DNA of 45,503 bases from an uncultured Acidimicrobiales bacterium (GTDB lineage: Bacteria > Actinomycetota > Acidimicrobiia > Acidimicrobiales > Aldehydirespiratoraceae). The DNA is taken from contig CAJQPN010000007.1 in assembly GCA_905480195.1 (NCBI GenBank), positions 1 to 45,503 on the forward strand, read 5' to 3'. Every line of letters begins with the position of its first letter. Positions within the stretch are counted from its first letter, which is position 1. Below the pieces are notes generated by a model. The model ran no database searches. It was not told the DNA's origin and worked only from the letters and a program-made list of their open reading frames with translations. This document shows, one piece after another, positions 43,443-44,615 of this stretch. Made by a program: the position numbers and the translations under genes.

Positions 43443-44615
43443 TTACGAGTTTGGGTGCGTGTTGGCGAGCGTGAAGCCGGCAGCCTCAGCGCTCTCGGGC
43501 GAGTCGAACCAGACCTCAGCGTTGGTGACGCTGTAGGAACGGCTGTCGGGCCGGTGATAGAGCATTGAGTCGACGTTGCCCTTGATGGTGAATTCGGAAG
43601 ACGGGGCCGCACCACCCTCGAGAGGGGCGGCCGAGCCGGGACCGTAGGGCGCGGGCGCCAGTACGACGGTCGCAATCGATGAGGCTTCAGCCAACGCGGG
43701 GCCGAGATCCACGCTGTCGCCACCCCCGCCGAGCGCTTCGGCGCCACCGACGATCTCCATGATCTCGGTGGTGATCGACGCCTGACGGGCAGCGTTCATC
43801 TCACGACTGAGCTTGGTAATGAGGTCCTCGGCGTTGTCGGTGGCCGACTTCATGGCCCGTTGGCGATTGGCGTGCTCGGACGCCGCGTTGTCGAGGAGGG
43901 CGCCGAACAACCGGGCCTCGATGTAGCGAGGCAGGAGTGATTCGAGCACCGCCTCGGGACTGGGCTCGAACTCGAATGCGGAGGCGGCCTCTGCCGATCC
44001 GCTACCACCGGCAGCGATGACAGAGGTGTCCTCTAGCGGAAGGAAGCGACGCACCGACACCCGCTGGGTGCCCATGGAGATGAATTCGGTGTAGATCAAC
44101 TCGACCTCATCCACCTGCCCCGACACGAAGGCAGCAGCGACGTCATCAGCGATGCGTCGCGCGTCTTCATAGGTCGGATCGGCGGTGAACCCCTCATAGG
44201 AGTGGTCGACGCGATAGTTCCGGAAGCGGAAGTACGCGCCCGGTTTCTTCCCGACACAGAACAGTGCGTAGCTCTTGCCCTCGGTCTGATGGGCCATCAG
44301 TTGGCGCTCTGCGGCGCGGATGGGGTTGGTGTTGAACGCCCCCGCCAGCCCGCGGTCGCCGCCGATGACGATAAACCCGACCGTCTTAACCTCCTCGACC
44401 TCCCGCAGCAGCGGATGGTCGACCGAGGCCCCGCCGGCAGCGAGATTCTCGATCACCGAGGTGATCCGGCGGGCGTACGGACGGGCCGCATCAGCGCGCT
44501 GCATTGCCTTGACGACCCGCGTCGCCGCAATGAGTTCCATGGCGCGAGTGATCTTCTTCGTCGACTGGACGCTCGAGATGCGACGGCGGAGCTCCCGCTC
44601 CTTCCCTCCTGGCAC
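43443..44615 (-). CDS. atpG: ATP synthase F1 gamma subunit with a C-terminal extra module
   Basis: Rotor-shaft subunit, 390 residues instead of the usual 285-310. Residues 1-295 are canonical: the N-terminal helix [20 protein letters not shown], the [16 protein letters not shown] core, and the C-terminal helix [20 protein letters not shown]. Where gamma normally ends, the frame continues in a Gly/Pro/Ala/Ser-rich linker (about 296-340). It then enters a compact module (341-390) with [20 protein letters not shown] followed by [17 protein letters not shown] similar short C-terminal module is appended to other actinobacterial proteins (NCBI's 'sunset domain', from memory). No internal stop or frame change is seen. 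It lies between atpA and atpD with short gaps. Confidence 0.96.

Follow-up and report, generated by a model that had tools for sequence, protein, structure and literature searches.

The domain family termed sunset is listed in NCBIfam as NF051437, together with variants known for the proteins L17, L4, L20, S2 and ArfC (NF051448, NF051449, NF051450, NF051451 and NF051433, respectively). The locus described here carries the same domain in the same layout, a core protein followed by a linker and a C-terminal module, but its host is gamma, the rotor subunit of a membrane motor. The C-terminal extension of the mycobacterial alpha subunit and the mycobacterial gamma loop are likewise lineage-specific additions to F1 in Actinomycetota; they sit on another subunit or at another place, and are not known to be separate folded domains. 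A regulator of mycobacterial F1 is reported to be likewise a C-terminal tail (PMC8698299). A homologous C-terminal module (E = 1.6e-23) is also found on uL4 of the C. acnes 70S ribosome (PDB 8crx; the sequence is identical in five other entries). In 8CRX the uL4 extension is solvent exposed and has no density, and the authors consider it likely disordered (PMC10085706), which is as expected of a free tether. This host differs from gamma in being a ribosomal protein and, with no density for the extension, that work gives no structure of the domain (PMC10085706). The tail of SecA, described as a flexible linker with a small metal-binding domain (PMC6620043), resembles our case in outline, as a small domain on the flexible tail of a motor. 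The resemblance is one of layout, and the two differ in that the small domain of SecA binds metal. Finally, E. coli F1 is reported to go on rotating with the tip of gamma cross-linked to the bearing, by swivelling in the single helix (PMC3536650). A tether at this place therefore need not stop the rotor.

The extended gamma subunit and its terminal module

The window, by which we mean the whole stretch of 45,503 nucleotides analyzed here, contains an ATP synthase operon whose genes, identified by Pfam, lie in the order atpA-atpG-atpD-atpC on the minus strand. The gene for F1 alpha (atpA, 44622..45503) is truncated by the contig end. It is followed by atpG (43443-44615), by atpD, the gene for F1 beta (41978..43426), and by atpC, the gene for F1 epsilon (41571..41966), in which both Pfam domains are present. 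The atpG frame opens with GTG and translates into 390 residues plus a stop codon (43443..43445, minus strand), and atpD starts 16 bases further on, at 43426. In its product PF00231 (Pfam ATP-synt) spans residues 7-295, up to the final profile position, with 337.4 bits compared to a cut-off of 39.9. The match to TIGR01146 (317.9 bits, cut-off 194.45) also stops at residue 295, and NF004145 matches the same body (residues 1-295; 43731..44615, minus strand), whose C-terminal helix is placed at residues 220-295 by AlphaFold2. In known F1 the C-terminal helix of gamma ends on the membrane-distal side. Here the frame runs on for another 95 residues, just as the preliminary description had it: an in-frame extension of about 95 residues beyond a canonical end near residue 295. 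Only one gamma match was found in the source genome (G000), whose assembly is 87% complete, so that nothing points to a further gamma lacking the extension.

The neighboring alpha subunit is also long at its C-terminus (44625-44783, minus strand). It continues for about 50 residues past the match to its Pfam C-terminal domain, which ends at residue 240 of 293, and finishes in an acidic low-complexity tail. Mycobacterial alpha also bears a regulatory C-terminal extension.

The 95 residues of gamma consist of a variable linker (residues 296-320; 43656..43730, minus strand), recognized by alignment, dN/dS and a pLDDT below 50, and a conserved module of 70 residues (321-390; 43446..43655, minus strand), delimited by alignments, dN/dS and AlphaFold2. 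The division into linker and module had been seen before, with the module opening at about residue 341; the division stands, but conservation already sets in at about residue 321. A profile search for the family of the module, which the preliminary description had left open, returned NF051437. The match covers residues 344-384 (43464..43586, minus strand) and 41 of the 42 profile positions (E = 1.1e-19 for the whole protein). At a curated cut-off of 27 bits, it scores 74.9 when the search is confined to the last 51 residues, 70.2 for the whole protein and 73.9 in the genome scan. By this measure the gamma module is a sunset domain, a family already present in NCBIfam. The conserved unit is larger than the NCBIfam model, since the motif PYGxGSxAPL opens it about 20 residues upstream of the model start. 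Among 71 modules 13 columns are invariant, six of them being K, N, S, H, T and E.

A variant of sunset specific for gamma was absent among the NCBIfam matches of the protein, which scored below the cut-offs of the variants for L17 (72.9 bits, cut-off 280), L4 (69.5, 385), L20 (43.1, 375), S2 (57.1, 710) and ArfC (73.3, 100). A uL4 (L091) and a bL17 (L169) from our set exceed the cut-offs of their own variants. Thus, what appears to be new is the sunset domain on F1 gamma, its presence on L4, L17, L20, S2 and ArfC being already known from NCBIfam. The open-access literature, which omits most subscription papers, yielded no description of the function of the sunset domain and nothing on the ATP synthase gamma of Acidimicrobiia. 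In the same literature we found no F1 with such an extension, in agreement with the earlier remark that none had been described. A Pfam match of the gamma protein to Antirestrict (E = 0.035, below cut-off) was dismissed as chance.

Neither the length nor the sequence of the linker is constant among 13 aligned gammas, and the distance from GAEAL to the PYG/PFG motif ranges from 26 to 58 residues in 14 gammas. In nine pairwise comparisons, in which pairs share sequences, dN/dS was 0.03-0.13 for the gamma body and 0.04-0.24 for the module. For the linker it was 0.14-1.08 in eight of these pairs, the ninth being saturated, and in seven of the eight it was the highest of the three regions. Since the low values of the module hold over substantial synonymous divergence, its sequence has been kept, and we conclude from these ratios that the module on gamma is under purifying selection. 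When the 70-residue module alone was modeled with AlphaFold2 from 71 sequences, a confident fold was predicted (pLDDT 90.0, pTM 0.80). In the full-length gamma, modeled from 13 close sequences, no fold was predicted for the module, with pLDDT below 50 over nearly all of residues 295-390, which we tentatively put down to the shallow alignment. Conservation, a variable linker and the predicted fold of the module alone fit the earlier impression of a folded-looking module behind the C-terminal helix. A frameshift error, which had been named as an objection, is not borne out: the 14 distinct extended gammas come from separate assemblies and all have linker and module. Together with the purifying selection, this led us to reject a frameshift or read-through artefact, and an assembly error is unlikely.

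Distribution of the gamma fusion and other hosts of the domain

All 14 distinct gamma-sunset sequences are from Acidimicrobiales. Aligning AtpG from relatives, as had been suggested, showed that seven of the 41 genomes examined, 39 of which have a gamma match, keep the module (G000, G004, G007, G014, G015, G017 and G021). All seven belong to the family of the window. In an even sample of the class, a sunset domain was found anywhere in 74 of 395 genomes, and gamma was the host in three of the carriers examined (G000, G007 and G255). The order sample gave a gamma match in 367 of 397 genomes and, among the matches listed, at least five carriers of the gamma fusion (G000, G004, G007, G255 and G1002); the gamma of G1002 is identical to that of L146. 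In the phylum sample 35 of 396 genomes match sunset at E = 1e-4, 34 of them above the cut-off. A scan of genome_contigs returned 524 sunset-related stretches, and gammas account for 12 of the best 80.

The 14 fused gammas form two separate groups, of 10 and 4 members, when 71 gamma bodies are placed in a tree, and at least five gains or losses of the module are required. Five genus-mates (G001, G002, G003, G005 and G006) have a gamma frame of 331 codons without the module. The gamma of G022 (L012) retains a linker and the last 11 residues of the tail, TLANTHPSPES, the rest of the module being missing, while relatives close by still bear it. Most of the module has apparently been deleted here with the frame preserved, and thus removed naturally, though this is seen in one assembly and could be an error. 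A tree of the modules themselves, which has few columns and leaves 70 of 149 inner branches open, was used for orientation only. A mobile or phage origin of the module was rejected on the following searches: tblastn of 47 module residues against 50,697 phage records gave no match at E up to 0.1, a scan of viral_contigs confirmed no relative, PHROGs returned only weak matches (E = 0.0046 and 0.017), PADLOC had nothing for the module, and a plasmid search returned 10 records with E from 4e-9, for a Tsukamurella L17, to 8e-2.

We then assigned the hosts of 169 distinct sunset ORFs by similarity to seeds. Ribosomal hosts are uL22 (27), bL17 (17), uL4 (15), uS2 (4), bL20 (2) and uS3 (1); AtpG contributes 14, and NusA, an aquaporin and an Fe-S reductase one each. 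Five thermonuclease-like and four LGFP-repeat proteins were named by eye. Hydropathy points to an N-terminal transmembrane segment (TM) in 42 ORFs, one being an oxidase-IV-like subunit, and six have a downstream TM. The remaining 29 ORFs had no host class by this measure, and two of these are a uS3 (L071), by its likeness to L072, and a bS16 (L227), by Pfam. Representative hosts score above their Pfam cut-offs for uL22 (three of three), uL4, bL17, bS16, uS3, bL20, uS2, NusA, aquaporin, Fe-S reductase, OmpA and fasciclin. The cytochrome c oxidase IV host falls just short (24.0 bits, cut-off 26.9), and its gene ends at a contig edge. The domain is usually C-terminal, after a variable or low-complexity linker. 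N-terminal and internal copies as well as tandem arrays also occur (L142, L148 and L151), tandems of up to four being found in proteins with an N-terminal TM. As judged from these predicted proteins, the comparison shows that actinobacteria have added the sunset domain to core machines of unrelated kinds, in most cases at the C-terminus and after a linker that varies.

Several individual hosts are of note. The NusA (L092, G066:C1:1783000-1787500) bears its sunset at the terminus and is a host outside the NCBIfam variants that came up. The aquaporin, the cytochrome c oxidase IV-like protein and the Fe-S (CCG) reductase (L140, L143 and L156), all from Acidimicrobiia, carry a sunset of the gamma type. 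So does a bL20 in a Myxococcales MAG (L152), outside Actinomycetota, which is a case of either transfer or mis-binning. Membrane-anchored proteins with up to four tandem sunsets (L159, L189 and similar ones) are found in Pseudonocardiaceae and Nocardioides. In G791 the modules of uL4 (L217) and bS16 (L227) are 98% identical in protein sequence, with one synonymous and one other difference in 41 codons, which suggests recent copying within the genome. The uL22 and uL4 modules of G792 (L147) are also 98% identical in protein sequence, with 10 synonymous differences. The source genome of the window has a second sunset, of the Cys type, in a small protein (L002, G000:C1:13310-13435) in which a probable membrane helix was recognized by eye. 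This protein matches no Pfam family, and its assignment as ArfC was rejected (23.7 bits in NCBIfam, cut-off 100). Similar small proteins recur in most of the gamma-carrier genomes examined.

In 18 of 23 cysteine-free sunset proteins with an N-terminal TM, more basic residues lie after the TM, with a tie in the other five, and membrane-anchored modules therefore probably face the cytoplasm. Cysteine-free modules are mostly acidic (138 of 157 are net negative, median -5), so that binding of DNA or RNA is not favored.

Probable relationship to the Ada zinc domain and subtypes of the module

The top three PDB fold matches of the module are all N-Ada (1u8b, 1wpk and 1zgw), although with weak E-values of 0.5, 1.1 and 5.7 and a TMq of 0.48-0.52. 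Viral fold matches include Ada-like proteins, none of them below E = 0.001. Profile-profile comparison links the cysteine-free to the Cys-type sunset at 99.8%, the Cys type to Ada at 94.8% and the cysteine-free type to Ada at only 56.5%. Moreover, a protein with four sunsets (L159) reaches 23.1 bits in sum with PF02805, at a cut-off of 23, with no single stretch passing, and a third, weak NF051437 match of the source genome (E = 0.126) falls inside that genome's own Ada match. From these profile and fold matches, we think that sunset probably has an Ada-like fold and that the gamma type has probably lost the zinc cysteines. The module is unlike the Ada N-terminal zinc domain in that it is acidic, has no cysteine in residues 321-390, and hence none of the four Ada zinc cysteines, and has no Pfam match to PF02805 at E up to 10. 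In the profile alignment the first Ada cysteine corresponds to His354 and, when the alignment is extended by counting, the last one to His387.

Cysteine-free modules split into an HRxDS type, mostly with a terminal HP or HS, and others. The gamma module has HRPDS and a terminal HP. In Acidimicrobiia this subtype also occurs on the oxidase-IV-like subunit, the aquaporin, the Fe-S reductase and certain membrane anchors. HRxDS is present in all 14 AtpG modules, in the one module each of the oxidase-like subunit, the aquaporin and the Fe-S reductase, and in nine of nine modules with a downstream TM, as compared to none of 67 on uL22, bL17, uL4, uS2, bS16 and NusA. Elsewhere it is found in uS3 (2 of 2), bL20 (1 of 2), proteins with an N-terminal TM (6 of 41), LGFP proteins (0 of 4) and unassigned ones (3 of 14), and the split by host is thus imperfect. 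Since gamma shares its subtype with the oxidase-like subunit, the aquaporin, the reductase and the anchors, it may have a membrane-bound partner and not one on the ribosome.

At least 11 of the 14 gamma-carrier genomes also have a ribosomal sunset. Twelve were searched whole, and 11 of these contain one, on uL22 in ten and on uL4 in one. A profile search of the whole source genome found no ribosomal sunset, and G015 has one further sunset match besides gamma. In the 25 genomes from the family of the window, not all of which have a full gamma match, sunsets on both gamma and uL22 are found in four genomes, on gamma alone in three, on uL22 alone in two and on neither in 16 (Fisher p = 0.032, kinship ignored). 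Identity between the AtpG and uL22 modules is 0.59-0.71 within a genome, compared to a mean of 0.64 between genomes; rows with one G394 module that was out of register (identities of 0.03-0.07) were left out. The two modules are thus no more alike within a genome than between genomes, and one shared, co-evolving partner for the two is not supported. Furthermore, in three of 16 named genomes the only sunset match is the one on a ribosomal protein, which rules against a general sunset-sunset pairing between hosts; a sunset on a second protein is not required as the partner.

Possible functions of the module on gamma

We give an even chance to the reading that the gamma module serves as a tag for docking, carried by a flexible tether at the upper end of F1. 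The linker of 26-58 residues would exit the membrane-distal end of the alpha3beta3 crown, the module would bind some cytoplasmic partner, and the swivelling tether would recruit the ATP synthase to this partner, or the partner to the ATP synthase, without acting on catalysis. The reading draws on the presence of the same domain on unrelated machines, on the exposed uL4 extension and on the cross-linked gamma tip of E. coli, and also on the conserved module with its variable linker, the fold predicted for the module alone, the tandem copies that probably face the cytoplasm, the shared subtype and the ribosomal sunsets of most gamma carriers. Against it count the genomes with one sunset match, the AtpG and uL22 modules that are no more alike within a genome, the imperfect subtype and the full-length model, in which the module did not fold. 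Among the roles proposed in the preliminary description, a recruitment handle is therefore the one that fits best. In a broader version, which we put forward only tentatively, sunset would be a general intracellular docking tag that many actinobacteria fuse to any core machine that has to be kept in place. A receptor would gather the tagged machines, namely the F1 rotor, the respiratory subunit, the aquaporin, the ribosome and NusA, with membrane and ribosomal subtypes kept separate, and the ATP synthase would be tethered by its shaft.

The other role proposed, a brake or latency device unique to F1, fares less well. Such a gamma-specific brake or latch would have the module slow or stop the rotor from a site on the crown or on delta/epsilon, in the manner of the epsilon C-terminal domain or the mycobacterial alpha tail. 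The module does stand at the rotor end, within possible reach of the crown, all gamma carriers are of the one HRxDS subtype, and a mycobacterial regulator is also a C-terminal tail (PMC8698299). However, that subtype is shared with the aquaporin and the oxidase-like subunit, the linker is unconserved and of very different lengths, closely related gammas do without the module, and E. coli F1 still rotates with its gamma tip cross-linked to the bearing (PMC3536650). Since sunset is also carried by many non-rotary hosts, such as ribosomal proteins, NusA, the aquaporin and membrane anchors, we regard the brake as quite improbable. It is doubtful, too, that the module is a partnerless C-terminal cap or solubilizing tail, small, stable and acidic, that shields a disordered extension from proteases or aids solubility. 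Its mostly C-terminal position after a low-complexity linker and the acidity of most cysteine-free modules would suit a cap, but N-terminal, internal and tandem copies exist, as do gammas with a tail and no module, and the 13 invariant columns among 71 modules seem more than a cap would need.

The probable relationship to Ada raises the possibility that the module descends from the Ada zinc domain and senses a ligand or metal, two histidines taking the place of Ada cysteines in the gamma subtype. The three N-Ada fold matches, the 94.8% profile link of the Cys type, the PF02805 score of L159 and the positions of His354 and His387 all point this way. Against it stand the weak fold E-values, the low profile value of the cysteine-free type, the lack of the second histidine in the modules of uL22, bL17, uL4, uS2, bS16 and NusA (0 of 67) and an acidic charge that speaks against DNA binding, so that we consider a sensor unlikely. 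The patchy distribution with its at least five changes on the gamma tree, the near-identical uL4 and bS16 copies in G791 and the apparent in-frame deletion in G022 are what would be expected of a passive hitch-hiker that spreads between genes by copying and persists where its cost is small. A mere passenger is nevertheless very improbable in view of the module dN/dS of 0.04-0.24, which indicates that its sequence is kept.

A natural F1 whose shaft ends in a predicted folded domain offers a ready means of testing how much this end can tolerate. Moreover, one and the same domain is found on ribosomal, transcription and respiratory proteins, on a water channel and on the ATP synthase in one bacterial group, and identifying the partner of sunset could account for all of these hosts together.
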